Shown piece after piece: positions 24,497 to 47,218 of a stretch of 64,000 nt of DNA. The position numbers and the translations under genes were made by a program. The DNA is from Symbiodinium sp. CCMP2592 (Eukaryota; Sar; Dinophyceae; Suessiales; Symbiodiniaceae), in assembly GCA_905221615.1 (NCBI GenBank), contig CAJNDT010006127.1, forward strand, positions 40,001 to 104,000, written 5' to 3'. The first letter of the stretch is position 1, and every line of letters begins with the position of its first letter. The notes under the pieces were generated by a model. It did not search any database, was not told the DNA's origin, and saw only the letters and a list, made by a program, of their open reading frames with translations.

Positions 24497-24680
24497 TGAG
24501 ATGTAACCTGGACGTGTATCCCCTCGCTAGGCGTACAGGAACACAGGCACTCAGGTGTCTCTTTTGCTACAGGCGCACAGCTGTAGTCCACTGCACTAGA
24601 ACCTTGAGCAACAGGCATGGATACATGCAAGTGATACGTGAAACAGACAGGCACCTGGATGTGTAACATTCAGTGTTTCA
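24497..24680 (-). repeat. 3' LTR of element A (184 bp)
   Basis: Starts TGAAACACTGAATGTT and ends ATCTCA on the minus strand, so it has TG...CA ends. By eye it is identical to the LTR at 59230-59413 and to the visible part of the one at 47077. Confidence 0.9.
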
Positions 24681-25408: not shown

Positions 25409-28400
25409 CTAGTCAGTTTTTGCCCTTGGCCTTGCCTTTGGACTTGTCCTTGGTCTTGCCCTTGGACTTGCCCTTGTCGGCGTCCTTGCCTTTTCCTTTG
25501 GAGGGCCTTCCTTGCCACCAGGAGGTTGTGCGGGTTCTTGAGGACGTTGAGAACCAGAAGCTTTAGCACCAGAAGCTGCCTCTTCCTGAGAAGAGCTTGC
25601 TCCCTGTGGTGCGGCTGCAGGACCAGTAGAACCAGAACCACGCGCCTTGTTCAGCTTCTGTCTCTCTTTTCTTCTGTCCGCGGCTTCCTTCATGGTGTCG
25701 GGATTGCGGTTGAGCGCTCTCATCCTGCCTCCAGAGTACTGGTTCGCGTGAACCTCGATGAGGAGCGGAGTGTGAGCGTCATAGTCCCGATCGTTGAGAA
25801 GGTACGCGGCGCTGGTGGAGTTTAACAGCCACTCAGAGACATGGATGTCGAACTCAGTCTTTGAAGACGGAAACTCCGCCCATTGATCGTCCGACATGCT
25901 GTGTCCCCATTCCATGACTGTAGCCATAACAGGATCCAAACCAGGAAAAGTATTCCAGTCTGGTTGCTTAGCTTCCTTGTATGGCATTCCCAGCGTGTCC
26001 TCATACTGCTTCAGAAGCCACATGGCGTTTGCTGACACATGTCTCGCACGAGGCGAACAGAAGTGTGGGCACTTTGGGCTTTCTGACCAGGCCTCCAAGA
26101 AGTAGTCGAGAAGGCTTTGGTACATCCCGCCACGAATATCCATCGACTCCTGCTTTCTGCCGGTGGCCCGGTAGAGGGCCATGTTGGCGTCGCCACCGAT
26201 GAGGTCGACTTGGTAGTGCAAGCAGTCGATGAACATGTTGCCCAACACTTCATGAGCCAACGCCACCTTGTCTGCCGCCGCGTCGTTGTGGAGGTGGAAG
26301 ACACAAACTCTGAGCCGGTCGGATCCAGCTCGCTCCAAGACCTTGGTCAGTGACTCATCTGGAACATCACCACGACTGCCCTGGAGACCGGTCGGTAACG
26401 TCATGCCATACACGATTTCCGCGACCATATAGGTTATTGGAAGGGACTCGTGGGCATATCCACTGAGAGTGGAGCCGGCAAGACGGGTGATCGAAGATCC
26501 GACACCATTTGTACGACTTCCCACCATCAGGTCCTTGGACTCGTTACGCAGGAATTGCCACCCGCGTGACTTGAGGAAGGCTTCCTCGGAGTCATCGATT
26601 GTAGTCGCTTCGCAGAGCATAAACAAATGCGTCTTCGACTGTGCAATCGATTTTATCAAGGCTCCTTTATTAGCGTCGTCCCAGTCAATGTGATTAGCAA
26701 CGGAGCTAGGAGCGGAACGCTTTCTTCCCCTGCTCATGTTGCCGAGATTGAGGATGAGCGCGGCGTACTTGGTCTTGCTGGTGAAGATAGGGACATTGGA
26801 GTCCTCTGCCAGACCAAAACGATGTATATAAGGATTCGGCATCTTCTCAAGAGAGAGGTCCCCGATCTCCTCTTCATCGACTCCGGTGCTCAAGAAGTAG
26901 TGAAGCATAGCATTCAAGAGTTCTTCTCGAGTTGCCGGATTGCCGCTTGCATCCAAGGACTTCAGCTTATCAAGAAGTGCTTCCATAACCTCCAATGCTG
27001 ATTCTCGGATGTCAGAGGCCTTGCCCATGAGCTTGTCGTCCAAGGTGCTACGAACGTCCCCAGAACGAAAAACAACGTCCTTTTTGTCGGGACGGCGCTC
27101 ATAGATGGGATCCATCTTGTTGAGTTGGTTGAATAGATCCACCATAGAAAGAGAGTATTTCTGTCCCTTGTGGTTCGGAACATTTACCCTCCAACTCATA
27201 TGCTGCACCTTGTAGGCGAGAACGGGCTCGTAATCAGGATCACGAAGTCCTGTATGATACAAGCCTGAATAGCCATATCCATGCAACTGCTTGCAGAGCA
27301 GCCGCATAGGGCTTTGTCGTTCGATTTCGGTGAGCTGCTTAAGGAAATGTTTGAACTCTTCGAGATCAACGAGCTCGATCTTTTCCTTTGCCTTGCCCAT
27401 CTTGTCGAACGCGTTCTCATTCTGGTCCTCTGCATCCTTCGCGGCCTGGTAGTACTCAGGATCCGGAACAGTCTTACATTTCCCCCAGATGCCTTGATCG
27501 TGAAGTTCACTTTCATCATCCTTCTCGGGAGAAATGTCTGGCATGGATTCCTCACCCTGTGGTGAGCCTTCCTCAGCCATTTCGATGTTCTCGGACTTAC
27601 CTCCTTCCTGACCCATGTGCTCATCAGATTCGACCTTTACCTCGGATCCCTCTCCATGTGGAGAGCCTTCCTCAGCTTCGGTCTTCTGCTGTGTGACATC
27701 AGCCCCAGATACCTCCCCCTGTGGAGAGCCTTCCGGAACGTCTGTCTCCATTGGCTCGACTGTAGCCTCAGGTACCTCTCCCTGTGGAGAGCTTCCTGGA
27801 GCATCAGTCTCCATTGGCACATCGGTCGGCTCGGTCTTAACCGGATCAACCTTCTTGCCCTGTGGCAAGTCCGTGGATCCAGACGACGGTTCGGAGGTAT
27901 CCATCTGAGTAGCCGCGGGAGGCTCCTCGATCTCCTCGATCTGTGGACATGGGAGTCGCTCGATGAACTCCTCGATCATAATGTCGTCATATGGTCGGGT
28001 GAGGAGCTCATTCAGCTCAGACTCCTTCTTCGCCTTCAAGTCTTCGTACGCCACCAAGTCAGCTTTTGCCTTGCGGGCGAAAGCTGATTTGAAATCGCGC
28101 TGGTCAGACTCAGCGAAGACTTTCTCCAGAACCGCCAGGAGGTAGCTGCCGTTGAACGGCTGCTTCAGGGTACTGTCGTAGAGACAATAGCCCTCAGGGG
28201 TTCGCACCGTGTATTTACGGCGAACCTCCAGATCACCGGCGTGGCGCTGGATGTAGGAGAAGAAGTCCACTCCATAAGCCTCATTGATGACGCGGACGAG
28301 CATCTGGAAATCCTCTCGCACATAGCCAACCTCTTCATACACATACCTTTCCCTGAGGAAAGCCTTGTGTGCGGCGAGCTTGCGAGAGTAGTCGGGATCC

Positions 28401-30481
28401 TCTGTCCTTGGCATCTTTGCACGAGAGTCATTGTCCCGAGGGCGATCGAATCCAATGTTACCCACGTTGGGCCTGAATTCGTTCGACGCGGCAACGGAGA
28501 CATCGTCCAGCATCTGGGCAAGACCGCCAGGATGACGCTTAAAGTTCATCCAAGGTGACGTGTAACCGTTGGAGTAAACCTTCGGTTTCTTGTCCAGCTC
28601 CACGAGGTAGTTCCCCTGCAACTTCCCCATCTCGAAGGCCTTGAGGAAGAAGTGCAGGGAGTACCCCGAAAGAGGATGCTGCAACCACGATGCCCAATCG
28701 TATTCACCACCCAAAGACTCTCTCATAGAAGTAGTCAAAGTGTGCCAGGGGGTGACCTGAACGAGGGCATCGCCATAGGTGCTAAGCATCGGCTGGCCAG
28801 AGGAGTCCACCATGTGCAACTTGCCGTGGGCGAAGAGATGCCATGGATTCGTCCTGGCCTTGCGGAGAACCTCGTTGAGCTCCTCCTGCTGCTGGGACTT
28901 ATGCGCATCAATCTTGCCGTGGACGGTGTCCCCAGACTGATACGCATACTTGGTGTCTCCTTCGGAGGCTGTGGCTTGCCGCTCCCGCTCTGCCTTAAGC
29001 TCATTGTCACGAATAAGCTTCTGGAGAGCTGCCGCGTCCAATGTGGGTACCTTCTCCTGAGAGAAGCTTCCCGGTGACGCTTGGCCTGCATCCTGAGATG
29101 TCTTTGGCCGCTTCTTGGGAGCTGGCTTCGAAGGCATTGGATCCGAGCTGCTACCCGGTACCCCTCCCTGTGGAGGGCCTCCGGAAGCAGATGCGGAAGC
29201 AGACGCTGAGGTTCCCTCTTCCTGAGAAGAGCCTACCCCTGCGCTTTGCTGCTTCCTCTCGTGGCGAATGCCACCCGGATCTTGCTCGTGAGGAGGACGG
29301 TAGTGATGTGTGAGATACATCGCCGGAATGTCCTTGTACGAGAGCACCACGCCGTTGTCTGTAAGAAACAGATCGTGGCCGTGACTCATGTAGCACTCGT
29401 AATCGAGCTTGGCGTAGAAGACGTAGGTACCGTACTTAATGACGGTCCCAGGCCCAGGAGAAATCACTCCACCCGCATAAACGAGGTGGATGGCCTTCCT
29501 GTGCCGCTGCCACGCCGCCTTCGTCGCCTCCAGCTTTAAGCCGTTTTCCCGGATGCTCTCGTAGTTGGAGTTATCCGAGGCGTGGAAAATCGTTCCAAGC
29601 TGGCGGCATCGCTCCAAGGTGAGCCTTTCCCCGAGAGCAACATCAGAGATCCGCTCGGGCATCCGTGAGTGACCCTGGACGGCGGAGACCCCGACATAGA
29701 AGTCGAAGTCAAAGAACCGCTCGAACTGCAGAGCCACCGGGGCCACCCAGATGTTGAAGCGACCCTTCGAGTTCGCCATCAAGAAGGCGAAGAACTTCTT
29801 GGGCTCCCACTCGAAAGGCCTGATGGGGTGCTGCATCATCGTCTCCAACGGGATCTCCATGTATCGACCCGGCGTGACCCTTGTGTCGTGCCTGGTCAAT
29901 GATGAAAGCTGCTTGGATGTCTTCACCGCCCATCCACCGTGATTGTGGCGCATCTGGTGAATGTTGAAGATTTCACGATCGAGCCCGGTGAGCTCGTCGC
30001 CGGTCAGACATCCAAGAAAGCACCGGAGGAAGTCGAACTTCCACGTGAGGTGCCGCTGCAACACATGGGTCCCAGGGTGAGTTTCCTCGTACAGCAGGAC
30101 GTGTGACAGAAAGGCCAACTGTCCTTCCAGAATGTTCACCGCGGCCATCTCCCCCTGAGGGAAGTACGCCGTGGTGTCCTGCTGACGGAAAAACCGTGGA
30201 ACACCTTCTGGGATGATCCTGAGGGAGGCCACCGGAGCACTCGCAGGATAGGCTCGACGATCCCTTGTAGGATAGCTGGCATTACCGTCGCCATCTCCAA
30301 CTGTTCGGAGTACACGACGGTTTGCCCAGGACGCGCTCTGTTGGTACAAGGACAGGTCGGGGACACCAGTGCGGACGTCAATCTTGAAGTTGCATCCCGT
30401 TGTCGGTGTCCAGTAGACCTGGAATGGTGCCTCCTCATGAGAGGAGCGTCCAGTGTCCATCGAGGGTCCTGCCGCAGCCAT
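25409..30481 (-). CDS. Third ORF of the copia element: Tpt1/KptA-like plus EEP-like protein (1690 aa)
   Basis: The single frame starts at ATG 30481 (MAAAGPSMDTGRSSHEEAPF). Residues about 186-395 follow the whole RNA 2'-phosphotransferase pattern: SKQLSSLTRHD (R197, H198), FLMANSKGRFNI, AVQGHSRM (Q269-S272), IFHASDN...IRENGLKLE, AIHLVYAGG (H332) and LFLTDNGVVLSY. The middle is acidic with SPQGE-type repeats near 880-960. Residues about 1238-1575 resemble an endonuclease/exonuclease/phosphatase fold: LILNLGNM, LFMLCEA, VCVFHLHND, DLIGGDANMAL and YDAHTPLLIEV (DAH where SDH is usual). The tail is lysine/proline rich and frameshifted here compared with element B. Known Tpt1 enzymes remove a splice-junction 2'-phosphate using NAD+, and some ADP-ribosylate nucleic-acid ends. 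Any such activity here is inferred. Confidence 0.85.
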   Translation of the reverse strand: MAAAGPSMDTGRSSHEEAPFQVYWTPTTGCNFKIDVRTGVPDLSLYQQSASWANRRVLRTVGDGDGNASYPTRDRRAYPASAPVASLRIIPEGVPRFFRQQDTTAYFPQGEMAAVNILEGQLAFLSHVLLYEETHPGTHVLQRHLTWKFDFLRCFLGCLTGDELTGLDREIFNIHQMRHNHGGWAVKTSKQLSSLTRHDTRVTPGRYMEIPLETMMQHPIRPFEWEPKKFFAFLMANSKGRFNIWVAPVALQFERFFDFDFYVGVSAVQGHSRMPERISDVALGERLTLERCRQLGTIFHASDNSNYESIRENGLKLEATKAAWQRHRKAIHLVYAGGVISPGPGTVIKYGTYVFYAKLDYECYMSHGHDLFLTDNGVVLSYKDIPAMYLTHHYRPPHEQDPGGIRHERKQQSAGVGSSQEEGTSASASASASGGPPQGGVPGSSSDPMPSKPAPKKRPKTSQDAGQASPGSFSQEKVPTLDAAALQKLIRDNELKAERERQATASEGDTKYAYQSGDTVHGKIDAHKSQQQEELNEVLRKARTNPWHLFAHGKLHMVDSSGQPMLSTYGDALVQVTPWHTLTTSMRESLGGEYDWASWLQHPLSGYSLHFFLKAFEMGKLQGNYLVELDKKPKVYSNGYTSPWMNFKRHPGGLAQMLDDVSVAASNEFRPNVGNIGFDRPRDNDSRAKMPRTEDPDYSRKLAAHKAFLRERYVYEEVGYVREDFQMLVRVINEAYGVDFFSYIQRHAGDLEVRRKYTVRTPEGYCLYDSTLKQPFNGSYLLAVLEKVFAESDQRDFKSAFARKAKADLVAYEDLKAKKESELNELLTRPYDDIMIEEFIERLPCPQIEEIEEPPAATQMDTSEPSSGSTDLPQGKKVDPVKTEPTDVPMETDAPGSSPQGEVPEATVEPMETDVPEGSPQGEVSGADVTQQKTEAEEGSPHGEGSEVKVESDEHMGQEGGKSENIEMAEEGSPQGEESMPDISPEKDDESELHDQGIWGKCKTVPDPEYYQAAKDAEDQNENAFDKMGKAKEKIELVDLEEFKHFLKQLTEIERQSPMRLLCKQLHGYGYSGLYHTGLRDPDYEPVLAYKVQHMSWRVNVPNHKGQKYSLSMVDLFNQLNKMDPIYERRPDKKDVVFRSGDVRSTLDDKLMGKASDIRESALEVMEALLDKLKSLDASGNPATREELLNAMLHYFLSTGVDEEEIGDLSLEKMPNPYIHRFGLAEDSNVPIFTSKTKYAALILNLGNMSRGRKRSAPSSVANHIDWDDANKGALIKSIAQSKTHLFMLCEATTIDDSEEAFLKSRGWQFLRNESKDLMVGSRTNGVGSSITRLAGSTLSGYAHESLPITYMVAEIVYGMTLPTGLQGSRGDVPDESLTKVLERAGSDRLRVCVFHLHNDAAADKVALAHEVLGNMFIDCLHYQVDLIGGDANMALYRATGRKQESMDIRGGMYQSLLDYFLEAWSESPKCPHFCSPRARHVSANAMWLLKQYEDTLGMPYKEAKQPDWNTFPGLDPVMATVMEWGHSMSDDQWAEFPSSKTEFDIHVSEWLLNSTSAAYLLNDRDYDAHTPLLIEVHANQYSGGRMRALNRNPDTMKEAADRRKERQKLNKARGSGSTGPAAAPQGASSSQEEAASGAKASGSQRPQEPAQPPGGKEGPPKEKARTPTRASPRARPRTSPKARPRAKTD

Positions 30482-30734: not shown

Positions 30735-33700
30735 TCAATCATGGAACGAAAAAGGAGGATGTGAATCAATTTCCTTCAACCACCCAGTTTGAACAGAACT
30801 CAGGAGGTTTCTAGGATTAGCGCTTCGTTTCGTGAGACAGTCAGAAAGACAGTGTTCGGTTCGAACGTGAGAAAGATCAGCAATAGCACCTGAACACGCT
30901 TCCTTTCTCAGCATTTGAATCATGTGAATGGTTTCCTGTTGTTCGGGTGAGTGAGTAGTAGAAGCGGTAGACACGAGATTGTTAGCATCGGTGCGAATGT
31001 GAATCTCGGCATCCAGACCACTAATGTCCTTCCACAAACCACGAAGCATTTGACAGGTACCAAAACACTTCATCAAGGCGTAAAGCTCAGCGACAGTGGT
31101 ACTGAGGGTCGTTCTCTTAATCTTGGTTGATTCGAAGAAGACCAATGAGCCTCGGGTGTCTCTTCGATTCTTGACCCTTTCATCTGCGATGAAGATAGTC
31201 ATCGCCCTCTGTGAGGACTTGTCGCTGTTGTTACGGAAAGCTGCGTCAGGAATTCCAAGAATCCTCGGTGATCCCTTCACTGGCCACACCCGCAACTCAA
31301 CTTCCTCACTGCGTATCTGTCGACACAACTTGTTCAACTCCTTGCAGTGACCAATAGTCGGAGCAGCGGATGCTGATGCCAGACGAGAGAACTGGTAACA
31401 TGCCTGAAATTGCGTCCTCGACTGAAGCCAGTTGATGCTACCAAGCAAAGAGCGATAGGAAGTGTGAAGAGATTTATCACACGCATCTGCATCCTTAAGA
31501 TGCTTTGGTATGACGATCTCCTCAAGCTCTGAAACACACAGCTTTTGATCGATCGAGATATACTTCTTCTTCCCTTGTGCATCAAGAACCCAACGAACAC
31601 GCTGTCCCGTGAACGTAAGGTCATTCTTGTCCTCATGGCCGACAGTGAAGTGTTCCTTGATCTTCTTTAGGAACCAAGTGAGGAACTCAGGGGTTCCACT
31701 TATGATGAGATCATCAACATGAAGACTCATCACTCCAACTGTCCTGCGACCTTTGCTGGGACTTCCATGCACAGGGTCAACAAAGTGTTCAAGAAGCTGA
31801 TCAACCAACTCGGGGGAGAGCTCTGATAAGCTCTCGACCTTGTATGAAGCCTTCTCTGGAAGGAACAAGGAGACTAGGACCTCAGCTTCTTCTTCAAGGA
31901 AGCAGGTCTTATCGCCCTTGTCCAACCTCAGGTCATGGGCCCTTTCGACAATCCACCATGTTCCTTTACGGAGGATCATGGAAACTCGATAAGGGTAGTC
32001 CTTGACCTGATAGACAGGTGCAGGAGTACGAAGAGCCTTGGCCCTGTGAGAAACGAGAGCATGCCCGTTCTCATAAGGGAACCAACCTCTTTTCTTACAA
32101 GCAACACTGCCCAAGAATCCGAGAAGCTTATCATCAGTCACAGGCCTCCAAGCATAGTCAACCATCTTCTTGGTATCGGTGTTAAAGCACTGAGCGATAT
32201 CGGGACATGAAAGATAGGATCTCTCCTCCGCACGGTCGGAGGAAGAACGGTTTCCTTCATCGTATGCGTAGCATGTCATGGCATGAAGGGCAACCTCCTT
32301 GAGGTAGGCAGGTTCCACCTCAAGAGAGGTGCTTCCTGCTTCAGGTTCCTCCTCCTGAGAGGAGCTTCCTGCCGCAAGGTGGCTCTTGCCCTTCTTGCCT
32401 TCTATGCCGTCGTATGCGACATAAGTGCATCGGTCAGCTCTGGTCGGTTCCATGCCTACAGACCTGAGGAATTTGTCCAAACGATTCCACCATCTTCTCG
32501 GTGCATCGTTCAGACCATAGACTGGTCTGAGACAAAGGCCAACCATCCAGGTAGGCAAACCGATGTCAGGAGGCAACTGAACCACAACCATGCGAGATGA
32601 CAGATTGTAGTGTTCCCCCTGAAGGAAAGCGGTCTTAAGATCCAAATGAAAAAGATCCCAATAGTGATTGGCAGCGCACTGCGCAACCAAACGGAAACCA
32701 TACCGAGTAGCCGTAGGGCTGTCCGTTTGTTGATCCCAGGCAAACTTGTCCTGAAACCCACGACAAACCCATCGGGCTTTGAACTTGGAAAAGTAACCGT
32801 TCTTGTCAACCTTCACAGTAAGGACCCAACGTCCGGTAAGAAAATTGACATCGTTTTTAAGCTTGCGACGGTCCGTCAGCCGAATTGCATCATTGTCCAA
32901 GTAACTCTTGAACTCCTCAAGTTTAGCCTTCCGAATTTCGGCGGCATACTTGCGCTGCATCTCCGGCGTGAGGGTACCTGCCTTGATTTTATCTTGTTTA
33001 GTCAACCACGACGCAAAACCATCACCATCCAACGGAACAAAGGACGGAACCTTGAAGGCCGACGGAAGGCGAATCAAAACGTCGTCGTCTCCAACAGCCA
33101 AAGCAAGCAAGCTTTCATCACGATAGTCAACCGTTGCATCCGAATCAGTATCCTCACCAGCTTCCGGCACCGGCGGTTCCGGGGTGGGTTCCGGGAGTGG
33201 GGTTTGCTGGATAGGAAATTCCCCCTCAGTCACCGGCAAACCAGGAACAGGAGCCGGATCAGAAGAAGAGGAAGCAGGCTCGTGAAAACCTGGAAAGTCA
33301 CCCGACGGATCGGGATCCTTCTTTCCCGCAGATTGCCCAGGCAACAGCACAACCGGGGGTCCCACGACAGTACGTGACTTTGCCTTTGACACATCGTCAG
33401 GATGTGCGCCTCGCGCACGTGTCTGTGACACATTGCGAGGTGATGGCGGTCGCATACTCTGTGGCACCGGAAAGTGAGGATGCGGCGGAATTGGAACAGG
33501 AACAATAGGTGAAGGTGGTGCCGGCCACGGCATCGGTGGACTAAGAACCTGATCCGGGTTCGCAAACTGAGGCGGAGCCCCAGGAGAATCGGGAGGACCT
33601 CCAGGAGGAGGCGACTCCTCGTGAAACTCCATCGGAAGAGGAGGCTCTTCCGGTGACGGACCATAACCAGGTCCCGGTCCCTGAGGACCGCCTCCTGGCG

Positions 33701-33917
33701 GTCCATCACCGTCCGGATCGTGATCCAGGTCGGAATCATCATCTCCCCCTGGTACCGGTACATGAGTACCGCCTCCAGGAGGTTGTGACGGAGGGTCACC
33801 ACCGACATGCAACTCAACAGGATTATCATCTAAATCCTGCTCTGGATGCTGTAGTGGCATTTCCTCATCGTCCACAGGCATATCACCGTGTGGATCATCA
33901 TATCCTGGATAGTCCAC
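30735..33917 (-). pseudogene. Element A reverse transcriptase and RNase H
   Basis: This frame covers the proline-rich linker after integrase, then the copia RT: WVCRGFQDKFAWDQQTDSPT, DLFHLDLKTAFLQGEHYN, RPVYGLNDAPRRWWNRLDKF and catalytic LHVDDLIISGTPEFL. RNase H follows with TTLSTTVAELYALMKCFG, IHIRTDANNLVSTAST and ADLSHVRTEHCLSDCLTKRS. The domain itself is open. At the 3' end one extra A in a run near 30750 changes the last residues to FSFHD and removes the usual ending (about 28 residues more in copy C). At the 5' end a lost G near 33938 separates it from the upstream pol frame. Confidence 0.85.
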
Positions 33918-35912
33918 ATCGTCGTCTGTGGCTGGCGGTTCGGTGCAACCGGGGCTGGCGCTGGCTGGTCCGTGAAGTCCAAGCCAACATCAGGCCCGCG
34001 TCTGGAACTGTTGTTCTGTGACTCGTTCCAGAACACTATCATGGACCAGTGCGTTGATTGCATATCCTTAAGGCAAGGAAGCAACTGTGCCATCGTCACG
34101 AAAAACACATGATCCATATCACCCTTCTGCCACAAAAGGACAACAGCATCAGGATGACGATGAACCAAAGGGAGTGTTTTCCCTTGAGTCCCCCTGTAGA
34201 CGTTACAGTACTCAAACTCCAGATACGGCAGAGTTAGCACGCGCACATTCTTAATCATCGGCCGCAAGGCGACCGCGTCAGACGATGTGGTCGTGTGAAC
34301 TTACAACTCAGTACCTGGAAGGAGACTGTCAACATATGACAGAGTCTGGACCAAAGACGATGTAACAAACCGCTGCGGCGCAACAAACCTCAGAGGTGTC
34401 GGAAGCTTACCTTTGTCATTGTTTGAGAGTAATGAGTACTCTGCTTCTGACGGAAGAACCGGTAAAGCCTCTGAATTGCGGTCTGATCGCAAACACAACG
34501 CACACAGTGTTCCATCATCAAAATCCTCAAAGATATGTTCGAACAAGTAACATTGTCGGAGATCTGATCGTTCATCACCCACAAGACACTGCGAAAGCAG
34601 CACAGCAAACCTTGGATCAAGTGCGTTAGCAGAGTCATAGCCTTCTTCCAACGACTCCAAACGGCCAAATGATACATCAGGCAGATTAGTGAGAAAAGAA
34701 AGCTCACCATGCTGACGCTTACCGTGGTCATCTCCCCCTGAAGGAAGTACACCACGGTTCTTGAAGGTGTGGAATGAAAGTCCTCTTCTCCACTTCAGCG
34801 AGCGACTACTCTGCGAAAGCCAAAAACCACAATGAGAAGGATACATGATGGTCACGAAGTATCCATCACCCTTGTCATCTTGCCAACGGCAGACTTCGGC
34901 ACAAAAGTGCCAGAAGGCATTGGTGGCCTTCCTGGTCCAACCATCAGGAATGACAGGATGAATAAAAATGTGATTAGGCTCTGCCTTCAAGATCACTCGC
35001 CAAGCGGCCTCAATCGAAGATTGGATAGACTTGGCGTTACATTCACCAAACAACACAGGTTCACTCGCATCAAGTCCAGAATGGACTGTGCACGCAGTAA
35101 GCCCGGTGAGGCGAGGTGTGATCTCAACGAAATCGCTCTTGCCTGAAGTGAGAGTGTGGTAACAGATCTCATGCGCATAGCAGAACCCAGAACCGGCACG
35201 ATCAAGAATATCGTCGCCGATGCGGTCGAGTGCCTCTTCCTGAGAAGAGCGTCTCGGGACCTCATCTTTCTTCCGAGGAATGGCCACATCATGCCACGGA
35301 TCTCCATCACGCCTGACCTTCGACTGATTAACCCGAAGAACGGCACGATGAACTTCAACCAACACCATGGCACCTTCCTGTGACACAACTATGCCTCTGA
35401 CCCAGGTTCCTTCAGACTTCTTCTTCGACTCATCCTTATGCCAAAAAAACACGCGGTCACCCTTCGAGTAAGGACCATCAGACGGCATGACTCTTCGTGC
35501 AAGGTCCTTCCGAAGGTCAAGTGATTGTCTGGCCTCTTGATGAGCCCGCATGGCAATCCTCTGGAGTTCCAGAGTGGTTCGATCCTCCTCGGCAGGTTCA
35601 GCAGAGAGCTGTTCAGGAGAACTGTTCTCGACAGCAAACAAGTCTGGTGGCCGTCTTCCTGTAGCTATCTCCAAAGGAGAATAGCCTGAGACGGTAAGCT
35701 GGCAATTTCTTGCCCAAGCAACCTTCTTGACTGCTTGACGAACAGTCACCTTCTCTGCATAACCCTCATCAGCTAAGGCCTTGGCCATGATTGCCCAGGT
35801 GCGCTTGAAAAGACGCACTGCGGTCTCAGCTCGATTAGGCCAAGAAGTCCGTGGTCCACATGGATACGGAGTAATGCCATGGAACTTGTAGTAAGACATG
35901 AACTGTGGCGTG
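33918..35912 (-). pseudogene. Element A integrase C-terminal half and linker, broken
   Basis: Starts at the head-to-head junction with TPQFMSYYKFHGITPYPC, keeps the PNRAETAVRLFKRTW segment with the last integrase acidic residue, then the copia extension. It is cut by TAA (34301-34303) after LLPGTEL where the other copies read on. A further frame (to 33830) continues with IKNVRVLTLPYLEFEYCNVY and shifts near 33938. The first half of integrase, protease and Gag are absent. Confidence 0.8.
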
Positions 35913-35922
35913 GGTTCACGCC
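35907..35922. other. Centre of an 11-kb inverted repeat
   Basis: The sequence GGCGTG-GGTT-CACGCC has the arms of elements A and B on either side. In intact element C the same integrase site (about 55895) continues GCGTGAAAAATGC instead. The two arms then run outward for about 11.3-11.4 kb to their LTRs. Confidence 0.85.
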
Positions 35923-38900
35923 ACAGTTCATGTCTTACTACAAGTTCCATGGCATCACTCCGTATCCATGTGGACCACGGACTCCTTGGCCTAATCGAGC
36001 TGAGACCGCAGTGCGTCTTTTCAAGCGCACCTGGGCAATAATGGCCAAGGCCTTAGCTGATGAGGGTTATGCAGAGAAGGTGACTGTTCGTCAAGCAGTC
36101 AAGAAGGTGGCCTGGGCAAGAAATTGCCAGCTTACCGTCTCAGGCTATTCTCCTTTGGAGATAGCTACAGGAAGACGGCACCAGACTTGTTTGATGTCGA
36201 GAACAGTTCTCCTGAACAGCTCTCTGCTGAACCTGCCGAGGAGGATCGAACCACTCTGGAACTCCAGAGGATTGCCATGCGGGCTCATCAAGAGGCTAGA
36301 CAATCACTTGACCTTCGGAAGGACCTTGCACGGAGAGTCATGCCGTCTGATGGGCCTTACTCGAAGGGTGACCGCGTGTTTGTTTGGCATAAGGATGAGT
36401 CGAAGAAGAAGTCTGAAGGAACCTGGGTCAGAGGCATAGTTGTGTCACAGGAAGGTGCCATGGTGTTGGTTGAAGTTCATCGTGCCGTTCTTCGGGTTAA
36501 TCAGTCGAAGGTCAGGCGTGATGGAGATCCGTGGCATGATGTGGCCATTCCTCTGAAGAAAGATGAGGTCCCGAGACGCTCTTCTCAGGAAGAGGCACTC
36601 GACCGCATCGGCGACGATATTCTTGATCGTGCCGGTTCTGGGTTCTGCTATGAGCATGAGATCTGTTACCACACTCTCACTTCAGGCAAGAGCGATTTCG
36701 TTGAGATCACACCTCGCCTCACCGGGCTTACTGCGTGCACAGTCCATTCTGGACTTGATGCGAGTGAACCTGTGTTGTTTGGTGAATGGAGCGCCAAGTC
36801 TATCCAATCTTCGATTGAGGCCGCTTGGCGAGTGATCTTGAAGGCAGAGCCTAATCACATTTTTATTCATCCTGTCATCCCTGATGGTTGGACCAGGAAG
36901 GCCACCAATGCCTTCTGGCACTTTTGTGCCGAAGTCTGCCGTTGGCAAGATGACAAGGGTGATGGATACTTCGTGACCATCATGTATCCTTCTCATTGTG
37001 GGTTTTGGCTTTCGCAGAGTAGTCGCTCGCTGAAGTGGAGGAGAGGACTTTCATTCCACACCTTCAAGAACCGTGGTGTACTTCCTTCAGGGGGAGATGA
37101 CCACGGTAAGCGTCAGCATGGTGAGCTTTCTTTTCTCACTAATCTGCCTGATGGATCATTTGGCCGTTTGGAGTCGTTGGAAGAAGGCTATGACTCTGCT
37201 AACGCACTTGATCCAAGGTTTGCTGTGCTGCTTTCGCAGTGTCTTGTGGGTGATGAACGATCAGATCTCCGACAATGTTACTTGTTCGAAGATATCTTTG
37301 AGGATTTGATGATGGAACACTGTGTGCGTTGTGTTTGCGATCAGACCGCAATTCAGAGGCTTTACCGGTTCTTCCGTCAGAAGCAGAGTACTCATTACTC
37401 TCAAACAATGACAAAGGGAAGCTTCCGACCCCTCTGAGGTTTGTTGCGCCGCAGCGGTTTGTTACATCGTCTTTGGTCCAGACTCTGTCATATGTTGACA
37501 GTCTCCTTCCAGGTACTGAGTTGGAAGTTCACACGACCACATCGTCTGACGCGGTCGCCTTGCGGCCATGATTAAGAATGTGCGCGTGCTAACTCTGCCG
37601 TATCTGGAATTTGAGTACTGTAACGTCTACAGGGGGACTCAAGGGAAAACACTCCCTTTGGTTCATCGTCATCCTGATGCTGTTGTCATTTTGTGGCAGA
37701 AGGGTGATATGAACCATGTGTTTTTCGTGACGATGGCACAGTTGCTTCCTTGCCTTAAGGATATGCAATCAACGCACTGGTCCATGATAGTGTTCTGGAA
37801 TGAGTCACAGCACAACAATTCCAGACGCGGGCCTGATGTTGGCTTGGACTTCACGGACCAGCCAGCGCCGGCCCCGGTTGCACCGCAACCGCCAGCCACA
37901 GACGACGATGTGGACTATCCAGGATATGATGATCCACACGGTGATATGCCTGTGGACGATGAGGAAATGCCACAACAGCATCCAGAGCAAGATTTAGATG
38001 ATAATCCTGTTGAGTTGCATGTCGGTGGTGACCCTCCTTCACAACCTCCTGGAGGCGGTACTCATGTACCGGTACCCGGGGGAGATGATGATTCCGACCT
38101 GGATCACGATCCGGACGGTGATGGACATCCGCCAGGAGGCGGTCCTCAGGGACCGGGACCTGGTTATGGTCCGTCACCGGAAGAGCCTCCTCTTCCGATG
38201 GAGTTTCACTAGGAGTCGCCTCCTCCTGGAGGTCCTCCCGATTCTCCTGGGGCTCCGCCTCAGTTTGCGAACCCGGATCAGGTTCTTAGTCCACCGATGC
38301 CGTGGCCGGCACCACCTTCACCTATTGTTCCGGTTCCAATTCCGCCGCATCCTCACTTTCCGGTGCCACAGAGTATGCGACCGCCGTCGCCTCGCAATGT
38401 GTCTCAGACACGTGCCAGAGGCACACATCCTGAAGATGTGTCTAAGGCCAAGTCACGTACTGTTGTGGGACCTCCGGTTGTGTTGTTGCCTGGGCAGTCT
38501 GCGGGAAAGAAGGATCCCGATCCGTCGGGTGCCTTTCCAGGTTTTCACGAGCCTGCTTCCTCTTCTTCTGATCCGGCTCCTGTTCCTGGTTTGCCGGTGA
38601 CTGAGGGGGAATTTCCTATCCAGCAAACCCCACTCCCGGAACCCACCCCGGAACCGCCGGAGGATACTGATTCGGATGCCACGGTTGACTATCGTGATGA
38701 AAGCTTGCTTGCTTTGGCTGTTGGAGACGACGACGTTTTGATTCGCCTTCCGTCGGACTTCAAGGTTCCGTCCTTTGTTCCGTTGGATGGTGATGGTTTT
38801 GCGTCGTGGTTGACTAAACAAGATAAAATCAAGGCCGGTACCCTCACGCCGGAGATGCAGCGCAGTATGCCGCCGAAATTCGGAAGGCTAAACTTGAGGA

Positions 38901-38938
38901 GTTCAAGAGTTACTTGGACAATGATGCAATTCGGCTGA
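35917..38938 (+). pseudogene. Element B integrase half and linker, broken
   Basis: Starts with PQFMSYYKFHGITPYPCG, and the frame runs to about 36180, where one base is lost (GACGGCACCAGAC against GACGGCCACCAGAC in the other copies). It continues at 36124-37437 and shifts again near 37308 (GAGGATTTGATG with one T fewer than C). Further pieces are 37329-37571 and 37568-38212 (IKNVRVLTLPYLEFEYCNVY and the acidic/proline linker), ending at a TAG that replaces GAG. The last piece, 38217-38938, is the linker up to TPEMQRSM, with a lost base near 38865. Confidence 0.8.
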
Positions 38939-41169
38939 CGGACCGTCGCAAGCTTAAAAACGATGTCAATTTTCTTACCGGACGTTGGGTCCTTACTGTG
39001 AAGGTTGACAAGAACGGTTACTTTTCCAAGTTCAAAGCCCGATGGGTTTGTCGTGGGTTTCAGGACAAGTTTGCCTGGGATCAACAAACCGACAGCCCTA
39101 CGGCTACTCGGTATGGTTTCCGTTTGGTTGCGCAGTGCGCTGCCAATCACTATTGGGATCTTTTTCATTTGGATCTTAAGACCGCTTTCCTTCGGGGGGA
39201 ACACTACAATCTGTCATCTCGCATGGTTGTGGTTCAGTTGCCTCCTGACATCGGTTTGCCTACCTGGATGGTTGGCCTTTGTCTCAGACCAGTCTATGGT
39301 CTGAACGATGCACCGAGAAGATGGTGGAATCGTTTGGACAAATTCCTCAGGTCTGTAGGCATGGAACCGACCAGAGCGGACCGATGCACTTATGTCGCAT
39401 ACGACGGCATAGAAGGCAAGAAGGGCAAGAGCCACCTTGCGGCAGGAAGCTCCTCTCAGGAGGAGGAACCTGAAGCAGGTAGCACCTCTCTTGAGGTGGA
39501 ACCTGCCTACCTCAAGGAGGTTGCCCTTCATGCCATGACATGCTACGCATACGATGAAGGAAACCGTTCTTCCTCCGACCGTGCGGAGGAGAGATCCTAT
39601 CTTTCATGTCCCGATATCGCTCAATGCTTCAACACCGATACCAAGAAGATGGTTGACTATGCTTGGAGACCCGTGACCGATGATAAGCTTCTCGGATTCT
39701 TGGGCAGTGTTGCTTGTAAGAAAAGAGGTTGGTTCCCTTATGAAAACGGGCATGCTCTCGTTTCTCACCGGGCCAAGGCTCTCCGTACTCCTGCACCTGT
39801 CTATCAGGTCAAGGACTACCCTTATCGAGTTTCCATGATTCTCCGTAAAGGAACATGGTGGATTGTCGAAAGGGCCCATGACCTGAGGTTGGACAAGGGC
39901 GATAAGACCTGCTTCCTTGAAGAAGAAGCTGAGGTCCTCGTCTCTTTGTTCCTTCCAGAGAAGGCTTCATACAAGGTCGGGAGCTTATCTGAGCTCTCCC
40001 CCGAGTTGGTTGATCAGCTTCTTGAACACTTTGTTGACCCTGTGCATGGAAGTCCCAGCAAAGGTCGCGGGACAGTTGGAGTGATGAGTCTTCATGTTGA
40101 TGATCTCATCATAAGTGGAACCCCTGAGTTCCTCACTTGGTTCCTCAAGAAAATCAAGGAACATTTCACTGTCGGCCATGAGGACAGGAATGACCTTACG
40201 TTCACGGGACAGCGTGTTCGTTGGGTTCTTGATGCACAAGGGAAGAAGAAGTATATCACGATCGATCAAAAGCTGTGTGTTTCAGAGCTTGAGGAGATTG
40301 TCATACCAAAGCATCTTAAGGATGCAGATGCGTGTGATAAATCTCTTCACACTTCCTATCGCTCTTTGCTTGGTAGAATCAACTGGCTTCAGTCGAGGAC
40401 GCAATTTCAGGCATGTTACCAGTTCTCTCGTCTGGCATCAGCATCCGCTGCTCCGACTATTGGTCACTGCAAGGAGTTGAACAAGTTGTGTCGACAGATA
40501 CGCAGTGAGGAAGTAGAGTTGCGGGTGTGGCCAGTGAAGGGATCACCGAGGATTCTTGGAATTCCTGACGCAGCTTTCCGTAACAACAGCGACAAGTCCT
40601 GACAGAGGGCGATGACTATCTTCATCGCAGATGAAAGGGTCAAGAATCGAAGAGACACCCGAGGCTCATTGGTCTTCTTCGAATCAACCAAGATTAAGAG
40701 AACGACCCTCAGTACCACTGTCGCTGAGCTTTACGCCTTGATGAAGTGTTTTGGTAACTGTCAAATGCTTCGTGGTTTGTGGAAGGACATTAGTGGTCTG
40801 GATGCCGAGATTCACATTCGCACCGATGCTAACAATCTCGTGTCTACCGCTTCTACTACTCACTCACCCGAACAACAGGAAACCATTCACATGATTCAAA
40901 TGCTGAGAAAGGAAGCGTGTTCAGGTTCTATTGCTGATCTTTCTCACGTTCGAACCGAACACTGTCTTTCTGACTGTCTCACGAAACGAAGCGCTAATCC
41001 TAGAAACCTCCTGAGTTCTGTTCAAAATGGGTGGTTGAAGGAAATTGATTCACATCCTCCTTTTCGTTCCATGATTGAGCACAAGGCCTTCTTGAACGCC
41101 TGGCTCCGTAAGGAGTACGCGGTTTTGATTGCAGTGCAACATGTCATGTTCATGCAGGAGCGTTTGTGA
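38914..41169 (+). pseudogene. Element B reverse transcriptase and RNase H, one internal stop
   Basis: 38914-40602 encodes copia RT (FLTGRWVLTVKVDKNG, HLDLKTAFLRGEHYN, LHVDDLIISGTPEF) and the start of RNase H, ending at TGA in FRNNSDKS where A and C read TCA. The frame resumes unchanged at 40603-41169 with FIADERVKNRRDTRGS, TTLSTTVAELYALMK and ADLSHVRTEHCLSDC, and ends HVMFMQERL then TGA. The native pol end is visible here and in C. Confidence 0.85.
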
Positions 41170-41303
41170 GTCATGTCTGCTTCATGTGTGAGCTGTCGGA
41201 GCAATTCAATGCATGTGCTTCATGAAGAGTTGTTGGTCTCTTTTTAAATTTGTGCCTGCATTGCTCAAATCAGCTGGTTCAAAACTCAAGAAAGTAGCCC
41301 ACA

Positions 41304-41330
41304 ACTTCCTCTTCTTCTGTTACCAGCATG
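41304..41330 (+). promoter_or_regulatory. Acceptor-like tract before third ORF of element B
   Basis: CTTCCTCTTCTTCTGTTACCAG ends in AG at 41325-41326, and the ATG of the third ORF is at 41328. The pol stop is at 41167-41169, so the third ORF is 158 bp downstream and in another frame. It needs its own mRNA or re-initiation. A spliced-leader or cis-splice acceptor is the simplest reading. Confidence 0.5.
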
Positions 41331-44300
41331 GCTGCGGCAGGACCCTCGATGGACACTGGACGCTCCTCTCATGAGGAGGCACCATTCCAGGTCTACTGGA
41401 CACCGACAACGGGATGCAACTTCAAGATTGACGTCCGCACTGGTGTCCCCGACCTGTCCTTGTACCAACCAGAGCGCGTCCTGGGCAAACCGTCGTGTAC
41501 TCCGAACAGTTGGAGATGGCGACGGTAATGCCAGCTATCCTACAAGGGATCGTCGAGCCTATCCTGCGAGTGCTCCGGTGGCCTCCCTCAGGATCATCCC
41601 AGAAGGTGTTCCACGGTTTTTTTTTTTTTTTTACACCACGGCGTACTTCCCTCAGGGGGAGATGGCCGCGGTGAACATTCTGGAAGGACAGTTGGCCTTT
41701 CTGTCACACGTCCTGCTGTACGAGGAAACTCACCCTGGGACCCATGTGTTGCAGCGGCACCTCACGTGGAAGTTCGACTTCCTCCGGTGCTTTCTTGGAT
41801 GTCTGACCGGCGACGAGCTCACCGGGCTCGATCGTGAAATCTTCAACATTCACCAGATGCGCCACAATCACGGTGGATGGGCGGTGAAGTCATCCAAACA
41901 GCTGTCATCATTGACCAGGCACGACACAAGGGTCACGCCGGGTCGATACATGGAGATCCCGTTGGAGACGATGATGAAGCACCCCATCAGGCCTTTCGAG
42001 TGGGAGCCCAAGAAGTTCTTCGCCTTCTTGATGGCAAACTCGAAGGGTCGCTTCAACATCTGGGTGGCCCCGGTGGCTCTGCAGTTCGAGCGGTTCTTTG
42101 ACTTCGACTTCTATGTCGGGGTCTCCGCCGTCCAGGGTCACTCACGGATACCCGAGCGGGTCTCTGATGTTGCTCTCGGGGAAAGGCTCACCTTGGAGCG
42201 ATGCCGCCAGCTTGGAACGATTTTCCACGCCTCGGATAACAGCAACTACGAGAGCATCCGGGAAAACGGCTTAAAGCTGGAGGCGACGAAGGCGGCGTGG
42301 CAGCGGCACAGGAAGGCCATCCACCTCGTTTATGCGGGTGGAGTGGTTTCTCCTGGCCTGGGACCGTCATTAAGTACGGTACCTACGTCTTCTACGCCAA
42401 GCTCGATTACGAGTGCTACCTGAGTCACGGCCACAATCTGTTTCTTACAGACAATGGCGTGGTGCTCTCGTACCAGGACATTCCGGCGATGTATCTCACA
42501 CATCACTACCGTCCGCCTCACGAGCAAGATCCGGGTGGCATTCGCCACGAGAGGAAGCAGCAAAGCGCAGGGGTAGGCTCTTCTCAGGAAGAGGGAACCT
42601 CAGCGTCTGCTTCCGCATCTGCTTCCGGAGGCCCTCCACAGGGAGGGGTACCGGGTAGCAGCTCGGATCCAATGCCTTCGAAGCCAGCTCCCAAGAAGCG
42701 GCCAAAGACATCTCAGGATGCAGGCCAAGCGTCACCGGGAAAGCTTCTCTCAGGAGAAGGTACCCACATTGGACGCGGCAGCTCTCCAGAAGCTTATTCG
42801 TGACAATGAGCTTAAGGCAGAGCGGGAGCGGCAAGCCACAGCCTCCGAAGGAGACACCAAGTATGCGTATCAGTCTGGGTACACCGTCCACGGCAAGATT
42901 GATGCGCATAAGTCCCAGCAGCAGGAGGAGCTCAACGAGGTTCTCCGCAAGGCCAGGACGAATCCATGGCATCTCTTCGCCCACGGCAAGTTGCACATGG
43001 TGGACTCCTCTGGCCAGCCGATGCTTAGCACCTATGGCGATGCCCTCGTTCAGGTCACCCCCGGGCACACTTTGACTACTTCTATGAGAGAGTCTTTGGG
43101 TGGTGAATACGATTGGGCATCGTGGTTGCAGCATCCTCTTTCGGGGTACTCCCTGCACTTCTTCCTCAAGGCCTTCGAGATGGGGAAGTTGCAGGGGAAC
43201 TACCTCGTGGAGCTTGACAAGAAACCGAAGGTTTACTCCAACGGTTACACGTCACCTTGGATGAACTTTAAGCGTCATCCTGGCGGTCTTGCCCAGATGC
43301 TGGACGATGTCTCCGTTGCCGCCTCGAACGAATTCAGGCCCAACTTGGGTAACATTGGATTCGATCGCCCTCGGGACAATGACTCTCGTGCAAAGATGCC
43401 AAGGACAGAGGATCCCGACTACTCTCGCAAGCTCTCCGCACACAAGGCTTTCCTCAGGGAAAGGTATGTGTATGAAGAGGTTGGCTATGTGCGAGAGGAT
43501 TTCCAGATGCTCGTCCGCGTCATCAATGAGGCTTATGGAGTGGACTTCTTCTCCTACATCCAGCGCCACGCCGGTGATCTGGAGGTTCGCCGTAAATACA
43601 CGGTGCGAACCCCTGAGGGCTATTGTCTCTATGACAGTACCCTGAAGCAGCTGTTCAACGGCAGCTACCTCCTGGCGGTTCTGGAGAAAGTCTTCGCTGA
43701 GTCTGACCAGCGCGATTTCAAGTCGGCTTTCGCCCGCAAGGCAAAAGCTGATTTAGTGGCGTACGAAGACTTGAAGGCGAAGAAGGAGTCTGAGCTGAAT
43801 GAGCTCCTCACCCGACCATATGACGACATTATGATTGAGGAGTTCATCGAGCGACTCCCATGTCCACAGATCGAGGGGATCGAAGAGCCTCCCGCGGCTA
43901 CTCAGATGGATACCTCCGAACCGTCGTCTGGATCCACGGACTTGCCACAGGGCAAGAAGGTTGATCCGGTTAAGACCGAGCCGACCGATGTGCCAATGGA
44001 GACTGATGCTCCAGGAAGCTCTCCACAGGGAGAGGTACCTGGGGCTACTGTCGAGTCAATGGAGACCGAAGCCACGGAAAGCTCTCCACAGGGAGAGGTA
44101 TCCGAGGTGAAGGTCGAACCTGATGTGCACATGGGTCAGGAAGGAGGTAAGTCCGAGAACATTGAAATGGCTGAGGAAGGCTCACCACAGGGTGAGGAAT
44201 CCATGCCAGACATTTCTCCCGAGAAGGATGATGAAAGTGAACTTCACGATCAAGGCATCTGGGGGAAATGCAAGACTGTTCCGGATCCTGAGTACTACCA

Positions 44301-46344
44301 GGCCGCGAAGGATGCAGAGGGCCAGAATGAGAACGCGTTCGACAAAATGGGCAAGGCAAAGGAAAAGATCGAGCTCGTTGATCTCGAAGAGTTCAAACAT
44401 TTCCTTAATCAGCTCACCGAAATCGAACGACAAAGCCCTATGCGGATGCTCTGCAAGCAGCTGCATGGATATGGCTATTCAGGCTTGTATCATACAGTAC
44501 TTCGTGATCCTGATTACGAGCCCGTTCTCGCCTACAAGGTGCAGCATATGAGTTGGAGGGTAAATGTTCCGAACCACAAGGGACAGAAATACTCTCTCTC
44601 TATGGTGGATCTATTCGACCAACTCAACAAGATGGATCCCATCTATGAGCGTCGTCCCGACAAAAAGGACGTTGTTTTTCGTTCTGGGGACGTTCGTAGC
44701 ACCTTGGACGACAAGCTCATGGGCACGGCCTCTGACATCCGAGAATCAGCACTGGATGTTATGGAAGCACTTCTTGATAAGCTGAAGTCCCTGGATGCAA
44801 GCGGCAATCCGGCAACTCGAGAAGAACTTTTGAATGCTATGCTTCACTACTTCTTAAGCACCGGAGTCGATGAAGAGGAGATCGGGGACCTCTCTCTTGA
44901 GAAGACGCCGAATCCTTATATTCATCGTTTTGGTCTGGCAGAGGACTCCAATGTCCCTATCTTCACCAGCAAGACCAAGTATGCAGCGCTCATCCTCAAT
45001 CTCGGCAACATGAGCAGGGGAAGAAAGCGTTCCGCTCCTAGCTCCGTTGCTAATCACATTGACTGGGACGATGCTACACCATCTAAAGGAGCCTTGATAA
45101 ACTCGATTGCACAGTCGAAGACGCATTTGTTCATGCTCTGCGAAGCGGCTAAGATCGATGACTCCGAAGAGGCCTTCCTCAAGTCACGCGGTTGGCAATT
45201 CCTTCGTAACGAGTCCAAGGACCGGATGGTGGGAAGTCGTACAAATGGTGTCGGATCTTCGATCACCCGTCTTGCCGGCTCCACTCTCAGTGGATATGCC
45301 CACGAGTCCCTTCCAATAACCTATATGGTCGCGGAAATCGTGTATGGCATGACGTTACCGACCGGTCTCCAGGGCAGTCGTGGTGATGTTCCAGATGAGT
45401 CACTGACCAAGGTCTTGGGGCGAGCTGGATCCGACCGGCTCAGAGTTTGTGTCTTCCACCTCCACAATGACGCGGCGGCAGACAAGGTGGCGTTGGCTCA
45501 TGAAGTGTTGGGCAACATGTTCATCGACTGCTTGCGCTACCAAGTCGACCTCATCGGTGGCGACGCCAACATGGCCCTCTACCGGGCCACCGGCAGAAAG
45601 CAGGAGTCGATGGATATTCGTGGCGGGATGTACCAGAGCCTTCTCGATTACTTCTTGGAGGCATGGTCAGAAAGCCCAAAGTGCCCACACCTCTGTTCGC
45701 CTCGTGCGAGACATGTGTCAGCAAACGCCATGTGGCTTCTGAAACAGTATGAGGACACGCTGGGAATGCCATACAAGGAAGCTAAGCAACCAGACTGGAA
45801 TACTTTTTCTGGTTTGGATCCTGTTATGGCTACAGTCATGGAATGGGGACACAGCATGTCGGACGATCAATGGGCGGAGTTTCCGTCTTCAAAGACTGAG
45901 TTCGACATCCATGTCTCTGAGTGGCTGTTAAACTCCACCAGCGCCGCGTACCTTCTCAACGATCGTGACTATGACGCTCACACTCCGCTCCTCATCGAGG
46001 TTCACGCGAACCAGTACTCTGGAGGCAGGATGAGAGCGCTCAACCGCAATCCCGACACCGTGAAGGAAGCCGCGGACAGAAGAAAAGAGAGACAGAAGCT
46101 GAACAAGGCGCGTGGTTCTGGTTCTACTGGTCCTGCAGCCGCACCACAGGAAGCAAGCTCTTCTCAGGAAGAGGCAGCTTCTGGTGCTAAAGCTTCTGGT
46201 TCTCAACGTCCTCAAGAACCCGCACAACCTCCTGGTGGCAAAGAAGGCGGCAAAGGAGGCAAGTCCTCCAAAGGAAAAGGCAAGGACGCCGACAAGGGCA
46301 AGACCAAGGACAAGTCCAAAGGCAAGGCCAAGGGCAAAAACTGA
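41328..46344 (+). pseudogene. Element B third ORF (Tpt1/KptA-like plus EEP-like), frameshifted at the front
   Basis: The ATG at 41328 starts the same protein as in A. The frame slips near 41470 (SLYQPERVLG) and continues in another frame (41371-42423) through the Tpt1-like core (SKQLSSLTRHD, AVQGHSRIPER, IRENGLKLE). It slips again near 42355 (GGVVSPGLGP), continues 42297-42803, then runs intact at 42718-46344 (1208 codons). That last part contains the acidic repeats and the EEP-like part (LNLGNM, VDLIGGDANMAL, YDAHTPLLIEV). The C-terminus is the undamaged lysine tail, KGKDADKGKTKDKSKGKAKG, then AAC-TGA-CTA-G. Sixteen T at 41617-41632 replace mixed bases of equal length. Confidence 0.8.
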
Positions 46345-46593
46345 CTAGGTTCAGATGAGGGCGAGGACGCAGACGTTGACGTTCCTGACGAAGACGTTGG
46401 TCCTGGCCCAGCATCCTTTGGTGATCGACCGTGGTTCCCATTTCGCCTGCAGCTTTTTCACTGGCATTTGGAGAGATGGTACTACCCTCACCACCATTTG
46501 CCTCATCCTGATGACAGTCCTCGTACTCGTCGTAGGGTGGAGCAGTACAACCAGAGGGTGATGAACCAAGGTCCGATGGAAGAAGTGGAGTGA
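46342..46593 (+). CDS. TGA-CTA-G stop followed by an 82-codon in-frame extension
   Basis: The third-ORF stop TGA (46342-46344) is followed by CTAGG, the known strong readthrough context. The same frame then stays open for 82 codons to TGA at 46591-46593. It reads LGSDEGEDADVDVPDEDVGP, then tryptophan-rich RLQLFHWHLERWYYPHHH and RRRVEQYNQR. Element D has the same stop context with an 81-codon extension of mostly different sequence. Readthrough is inferred, not shown. Confidence 0.55.
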
Positions 46594-47076: not shown

Positions 47077-47218
47077 TGAAACACTGAATGTTACACATCC
47101 AGGTGCCTGTCTGTTTCACGTATCACTTGCATGTATCCATGCCTGTTGCTCAAGGTTCTAGTGCAGTGGACTACAGCTGTGCGCCTGTAGCAAAAGAGAC
47201 ACCTGAGTGCCTGTGTTC
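47077..47218 (+). repeat. 3' LTR of element B, cut by the gap
   Basis: The first 142 of an expected 184 bp, TGAAACACTGAATG to GTGCCTGTGTTC. By eye it is identical to the corresponding part of the LTRs at 24497 and 59230. Confidence 0.9.

Follow-up and report, generated by a model that had tools for sequence, protein, structure and literature searches.

Fungal tRNA splicing ends with a step catalysed by Tpt1, and extra 3' open reading frames (ORFs), such as env-like ones, are known from Ty1/copia elements of the Sirevirus type, where they lie between RNase H and the 3' long terminal repeat (LTR). Tpt1 removes 2'-phosphates that stem from ligation, including those of the ligated HAC1 mRNA in yeast (PMC6456296), and its role in organisms without that splicing pathway is called unclear in the available parts of two studies (PMC6333775, PMC6582358). 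The human homologue TRPT1 ADP-ribosylates 5'-phosphorylated RNA and DNA, on RNA via the same catalytic tetrad, and ADP-ribosylation of 5'-phosphate ends is also described for Streptomyces KptA (PMC6582358). The nearest precedents for the element described here, as far as the available text of both sources goes, are DNA methyltransferases in long interspersed nuclear elements (LINEs) and DIRS elements of Symbiodinium (PMC5890265) and viral proteins with a KptA domain (PMC9503650). We analysed a 64-kb stretch of the Symbiodinium sp. CCMP2592 genome (contig CAJNDT010006127.1), hereafter called the window. It contains four related copies, A (minus strand), B (plus), C (minus) and D (minus), of what its sequence indicates to be a family of copia-type LTR retrotransposons with an extra ORF, ORF3, between the reverse transcriptase (RT)/RNase H ORF and the 3' LTR. 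ORF3 encodes a divergent Tpt1/KptA domain. The overall best explanation, to which we give a little less than an even chance, is that this domain would act with nicotinamide adenine dinucleotide (NAD+) on the phosphates of the element's own RNA.

The Tpt1/KptA domain of ORF3

A sequence-only reading of the window had recognised Tpt1/KptA motifs in ORF3 of copy A, and all of its motif strings were found there. When the whole ORF3 was searched, PF01885 remained just below its cut-off of 26 bits (25.3 bits, E=1.8e-5), and a slice of ORF3 reached 31.6 bits (E=2.1e-7), with residues 186-381 aligned to profile positions 4-175 of 177. The significant match that the sequence-only reading had looked to PF01885 for was hence obtained. 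PF01885 was the sole Pfam family in ORF3 at E-values up to 1 and matched nine of nine slices from the family (best E 2.2e-12). In hhalign comparisons, 26 copia-type rows (alignment A4 minus its two outside rows) matched ten Tpt1 proteins at 99.2% (E 9.1e-20, 173 columns). Controls with reversed Tpt1, with endonuclease/exonuclease/phosphatase (EEP) proteins and with reversed EEP proteins gave 0.1%, 0.1% and 0.3%, respectively. Three of the ten templates (P0115, P0116 and an Erwinia phage protein) originated in searches with the copia family itself. The seven independent templates yielded 98.3% (E 1.7e-14, 157 columns; reversed 0.1%) and, with three divergent query rows also dropped, 97.6% (E 3.4e-12). 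Together with the active-site alignment, these Pfam and hhalign results bear out the Tpt1/KptA half of the sequence-only reading, and we regard residues 186-381 as a genuine, though divergent, Tpt1/KptA domain.

The catalytic tetrad of Tpt1, Arg-His-Arg-Arg, has been described with the roles of its members (PMC6333775). Its first three residues are kept in the window as R197, H198 and R241, and across the copia rows in 18 of 19 spanning rows for each of the first two and in 25 of 26 for the third. The fourth Arg is replaced by K349; among the 26 copia rows, this position holds Arg in 13, Lys in 10, and Leu, Cys and a gap in one each. QGH is conserved in 24, 26 and 26 of 26 rows, counted by residue. 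The HGT motif of the NAD lobe reads HAS in the window, with His in 25 of 26 copia rows and a third residue that is Thr in 12, Ser in 7 and Ala in 7. A plasmid record annotated as RNA 2'-phosphotransferase also has HAT in the same alignment.

These substitutions could mean that the domain of the copia branch is a non-catalytic RNA-binding module that uses its winged-helix RNA lobe. Such a loss would be in line with the replacement of HGT by HA(S/A/T), seen in almost every row, with the Lys in 10 of 26 and with the long copia branch (2.71 changes per column in the tree described below). However, hardly any row departs from Arg-His-Arg, QGH or the first His of HGT, and the sampled LINE domains are canonical, which makes a non-catalytic module decidedly unlikely in our view. 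It is also possible that the domain is an ADP-ribosyltransferase marking 5'-phosphate ends of the element's RNA or cDNA, as a cap-like protection against nucleases, rather than a remover of 2'-phosphates. The human and Streptomyces homologues perform this reaction on 5'-phosphorylated RNA (PMC6582358), the R137A and H138A mutants of the Runella enzyme accumulate the ADP-ribosylated intermediate (PMC6333775), and in 24 of 26 rows of the copia branch a Leu stands at this position or close to it. Yet seven of ten bacterial, archaeal, phage and fungal-like Tpt1 rows are also without Arg or Lys at that Leu position, and therefore the position cannot separate the two reactions. We consider a dedicated ADP-ribosyltransferase unlikely.

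A search with residues 120-420 retrieved 13 proteins among 603 candidates. Twelve of these were 933-1687 amino acids long and 58-68% identical to the window over the searched residues, and precomputed annotation assigns PF01885 to 11 of the 13. A profile search with a limit of E 1 returned 102 proteins, of which 18 have PF01885; those with an organism name were all from Symbiodinium except the last row, Chrysothrix (E 0.94). Three of the 102 are named GIP, which we take to be the name of a copia polyprotein. In the gene model P0014 (eukprot), a copia RT (79% identity over 452 positions) is directly followed by ORF3 sequence (48% over 170). This model also includes a protein kinase and EF hands, and the fusion is probably a prediction error or readthrough. 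Viral contigs contained no related locus, and a tblastn search of phages gave eight weak matches (E 0.2-0.8), all in Erwinia phages, three annotated as RNA 2'-phosphotransferase and five as hypothetical protein. Related ORFs occur in Symbiodinium sequences beyond the window. The sequence-only reading had taken ORF3 to be part of the element, and we agree: ORF3 follows the RT in copies A, B and C, its second half lies inside the LTR-bounded copy D, and twelve long relatives and the RT-ORF3 combination of P0014 are found elsewhere. We give practically no weight to ORF3 being an adjacent host gene or a fortuitous insertion.

Tpt1 domains in LINE-type families of the same genome

We searched the genome (1,098,105,373 bases, 5383 contigs) with PF01885. 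With 150 of 1550 candidates scored, this revealed at least 152 matches (best E 8.6e-50). The 150 matches listed were all above the family cut-off, two of them with an internal stop. Among the matches listed, 132 scored 92-139 bits, mostly within open frames some 665 amino acids long, and 130 of these span profile positions 4 or 5 to 176; the window's own copies were not among the matches listed. The families were read from a sample of 8 + 11 regions, the later eleven analysed in part.

In family F2 (five loci, L025-L028 and L030), a 665-amino-acid ORF combines a Tpt1 match (E 1.4e-39) with a weak PARP match below the cut-off (E 2.6e-4). At L027, L028 and L030 it lies on the same strand as, and downstream of the end of, another ORF, which is complete on contig C890 (1576 amino acids; weak EEP match at E 0.005, RVT_1 at 4.8e-22, UCH at 3.5e-8). 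Family F3 has a 757-amino-acid ORF with Tpt1 (1.7e-39), followed by EEP (1.2e-5) and RVT_1 (1.3e-18), on two contigs that are apparent duplicates. Family F4 has ORFs of 1501 and 1535 amino acids with Tpt1 at about 1e-44 and EEP at 1.3e-10 and 1.6e-8. RVT_1 (1.2e-9) follows the Tpt1/EEP ORF on C2857, and the adjoining RVT_1 ORF on C4579 is on the opposite strand. The F4 Tpt1 domain matches TRPT1 structures at 5.6e-27. Overall, the LINE Tpt1 domains score E 1e-39 to 1e-44 and are accompanied on their own strand by nearby EEP and RVT_1 matches, with the exception of F4 on C4579. In the alignment, HGT and all four tetrad residues are present in the F2 rows, the F3 rows and seven F4 rows. The sampled regions thus show Tpt1 with a canonical active site in at least three RVT_1 (LINE-type) families, and with the copia family added, the domain is present in two classes of retrotransposon and at least four families. 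Its presence in the copia family and at least three other families of one genome suggests a use of Tpt1 by these elements to repair or mark the RNA that they produce.

Tpt1 and the weak PARP-like match occur together at the F2 loci L025-L028, L030 and L034 on C890, C5107, C1724 and C190; F2 units stand in tandem on C890 (about 10.1 kb each), and the F2 RT ORF has a UCH (deubiquitinase) domain at its end. At another locus, L033 (C4512:150500-160000, locus 5009-5901, minus strand), the LRH motif is in an upstream frame and the remainder of the domain in a 242-amino-acid frame. This locus is probably the cell's own Tpt1 gene, and the split between the two frames suggests an intron.

One might also consider that the domain targets host molecules, e.g. 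host tRNA, or counters host defence via RNA phosphates or ADP-ribose. For viral polyprotein KptA, a role in processing either viral RNA or RNA that host RNases have attacked was put forward (PMC9503650), and the weak PARP match of one LINE ORF and the UCH protease domain of its RT ORF might be read along similar lines. The sequence evidence collected here, however, points to no host target, and we judge this explanation very unlikely.

In a Tpt1 tree of 30 rows, which leaves 13 of its 27 inner branches open and includes several long rows, the nine copia rows formed one group (support 100/100), F2 another (99/96) and F4 a third (99/98). F3, F4, the C4512 gene, P0115 and P0116 were placed on one weaker branch (81/96). 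Separate captures of Tpt1 fit this tree but are not proved by it. Purifying selection acts on the Tpt1 domain of F4: dN/dS (the ratio of nonsynonymous to synonymous substitution rates) was 0.119-0.123 for L017 compared with four other copies (dS 0.92-0.98) and 0.04-0.19 in six closer pairs. It is likely for the F2 Tpt1 ORFs as well (0.17-0.40 in six pairs). For the whole ORF3 of the window family, dN/dS was 0.26-0.52 in six pairs.

2'-phosphates are expected to block reverse transcription. We tentatively propose, as a scenario that is plausible though clearly short of an even chance, that copia and several LINE families of one dinoflagellate lineage captured Tpt1 independently and kept it because retrotransposition runs through broken and ligated RNA. 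In the overall best explanation given at the outset, a metal-independent nuclease would cleave the element's RNA and a plant/fungal-type RNA ligase would seal it again, leaving a 2'-phosphate at the seam. This phosphate would hinder reverse transcription and would be removed by Tpt1. In the copia branch, with its HA(S/A/T) motif and a fourth Arg that is often Lys, the reaction may halt at the ADP-ribosylated intermediate or target 5'-phosphate ends.

Several observations weigh against an action of Tpt1 on the element's RNA. HMMER searches of solved structures, run with the Tpt1 slice of the window and with its profile, retrieved unrelated rows only and no Tpt1 chain, an NCBIfam scan of ORF3 gave no match, and Tpt1 proteins outside the copia family reached only E 0.6-0.9 in the protein profile search. 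The window's branch has Lys as fourth tetrad residue and HAS in place of HGT, and in human TRPT1 alanine at any tetrad position abolishes activity (PMC6582358). A deletion of about 2.6 kb has removed the entire Tpt1 domain from copy D, which retains both LTRs. Finally, the Tpt1 part of the window family showed a dN/dS of 0.41-0.73 in three pairs with 4-5 synonymous and 7-11 other changes; these changes are few, and therefore selection on this part is unproven from the DNA. The protein conservation of 58-68% across sequences speaks for such selection.

The C-terminal part of ORF3 and the element copies

The sequence-only reading had joined the Tpt1 domain to an EEP-like nuclease in the C-terminal third of ORF3. 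The motif words and their order are indeed present, and with a choice of motifs made post hoc, few columns are more conserved than those of the EEP-like residues (N1245 35/35, E1291 38/38, H1396 39/40, D1431 38/40, N1433 38/40, H1570 29/38 with 8 gaps). The final motif is DSH in most rows (S in 27, A in 2 of 38) and not of the SDH type; the window has DAH, the alteration that had been pointed out before. The assignment to EEP proper was not supported. PF03372 matched 0 of 6 and 0 of 32 C-terminal members at E up to 10, in searches whose HMMER filters drop weak matches, and PDB profile searches with the C-terminus gave no EEP support. hhalign reached 0.5% against EEPs of the ExoIII type and 0.9% against three LINE EEPs, which themselves, coming from the same genome, matched the same ExoIII set at 98.3%. 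As the motifs alone fit and neither Pfam, PDB profiles nor hhalign support an EEP identity, we call this region EEP-like by motif and not EEP. Its dN/dS was 0.09-0.17 in three pairs, and a search with it (8000 candidates scored) found 101 proteins, the organism-named ones all from Symbiodinium.

The features of the window are listed in Table 1. In copy A, the RT was identified by a Pfam match of ORF2 to RVT_2 (PF07727 E=1.7e-16). ORF3 starts 253 bases downstream of this ORF, and the LTR follows about 0.7 kb past ORF3. The C-terminal end of ORF3 in copy A (GPPKEKARTP...) is in a reading frame unlike that of copy B.

Table 1 Positions of element parts and other features in the 64-kb window.
Feature	Position	Strand	Description
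3' LTR, copy A	24498..24680	minus	183 bp, identical to the 5' LTR of copy C
ORF3, copy A	25409..30481	minus	uninterrupted third ORF of a copia-type LTR retrotransposon, 1690 amino acids
ORF3 C-terminal region, copy A	25754..26770	minus	residues ~1238-1576; EEP-like motif order, by motif only
Tpt1/KptA domain, copy A	29339..29926	minus	residues 186-381; predicted by Pfam, hhalign and active-site residues
ORF2, copy A	30735..33917	minus	copia reverse transcriptase RVT_2; RNase H by motif only
gag-pol remnant, copy A	34301..35912	minus	cut at the inverted junction; listed ORF extends to 35950
Copy B	35915..47218	plus	inverted relative to A; 3' LTR interrupted by assembly gap
ORF3, copy B	41371-42423 + 42718-46344	plus	two pieces; frameshift terminates the Tpt1 half
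Assembly gap	47219-47318		100 N
Tpt1 domain, copy C	49329..49916	minus	open frame inside ORF 48057-50471; coordinates transferred from residues 186-381
gag-pol ORF, copy C	54009..59027	minus	1672 amino acids; gag, protease and integrase recognised by eye only
Candidate primer-binding site	59215..59226	minus	TGGTAGCGGAGC, 4 bases past the 183-bp LTR match of copy C
5' LTR, copy C	59231..59413	minus	TGAAACAC...TTACATCTC, next base A
3' LTR, copy D	59486..59668	minus	5' LTR outside the window, contig C5265:111661-111843
Copy D ORF	60832..63999	minus	RNase H piece fused to ORF3 at residue 628; join near 63621

Copies A and B stand head to head and meet near 35913. The junction itself (35890-35940) is a near-perfect palindrome, at which both copies, differing by about 2-3%, have the same gag-pol end position. 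A fold-back sequencing artefact was considered for this palindrome and rejected: comparison of the two arms gave 134 mismatches with 12 gap openings in 8.2 kb, and a further 81 mismatches with 12 gap openings in the adjoining 3.2 kb, and the arms are therefore unlike one molecule read twice. In copy C, the Tpt1 domain is intact and the frame of ORF3 stops after 804 amino acids. Its gag-pol ORF had no Pfam or NCBIfam match, and the integrase was recognised by a D..D..E-like pattern. Copy D is LTR-bounded because of its two LTRs (Table 1), which span 12,358 bp from LTR to LTR, are identical at 178 of 183 positions and have the ends TG...CA when the next base A is included. Both of its flanks are G-runs, which are indistinguishable from a 5-bp target duplication. 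Of the four copies, three contain Tpt1 sequence (A, B and C) and two have it intact (A and C). The earlier statement that the ORF occurs in all four copies therefore needs qualification, as the domain is gone in D and the frame is broken in B. Both LTRs and an intact Tpt1 half were seen together in none of the four copies within the window.

The LTRs are located within the G-runs of a repeat of about 80-90 bp (24200-24497, 59413-59485), which also occurs at 12965-13504; these repeats look as if they were preferred targets. Rfam and tRNA scans of the window gave no matches. Apart from the elements, an ORF of 354 amino acids (14716-15780, minus strand) matches the core-histone fold in two stretches (PF00125, E=1.3e-7), which is notable for a dinoflagellate, and an ORF of 161 amino acids (20155-20640, minus strand) is a translated repeat with the peptide DQTISIPAEHP/SRSDHIHSRRAS.

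Comparison with known systems

Judged by the titles and abstract openings listed, our searches of the open-licence PMC literature yielded no report of Tpt1 in retrotransposons. The words Tpt1 and phosphotransferase are absent from the available text of a review of dinoflagellate genomics (PMC11453091). With Tpt1 as a repeated accessory domain, canonical in the LINE samples and under purifying selection in one LINE family, these retrotransposons offer a setting for seeking its substrate, which would be element RNA. RNA-end chemistry would then join DNA methylation among the functions that dinoflagellate retrotransposons took from cells, and a step of RNA repair or ADP-ribosylation would be built into the retrotransposon life cycle.

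Compared to Tpt1/KptA/TRPT1 proteins (PF01885), the domain shares the full-length profile match, Arg-His-Arg, QGH and the His of HGT. It differs in its position inside a retrotransposon ORF of 1690 amino acids, in HA(S/A/T) and in a fourth Arg that is often Lys. In contrast to the extra ORF of Sirevirus-type elements, ORF3 has an enzyme-like domain. The LINE and DIRS elements of Symbiodinium resemble the families described here in having captured a nucleic-acid-modifying enzyme and in their many copies, whereas the enzyme there is a DNA methyltransferase and the copia superfamily is without it; the word phosphotransferase is absent from the main text of that study in its available part (PMC5890265). 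The KptA domains of Beihai picorna-like virus, Botrylloides leachii nidovirus and Bodo saltans virus likewise reside within proteins of selfish elements, but their carriers are RNA or large DNA viruses, and the available text of that source contains neither "retrotransposon" nor "retroelement" (PMC9503650).

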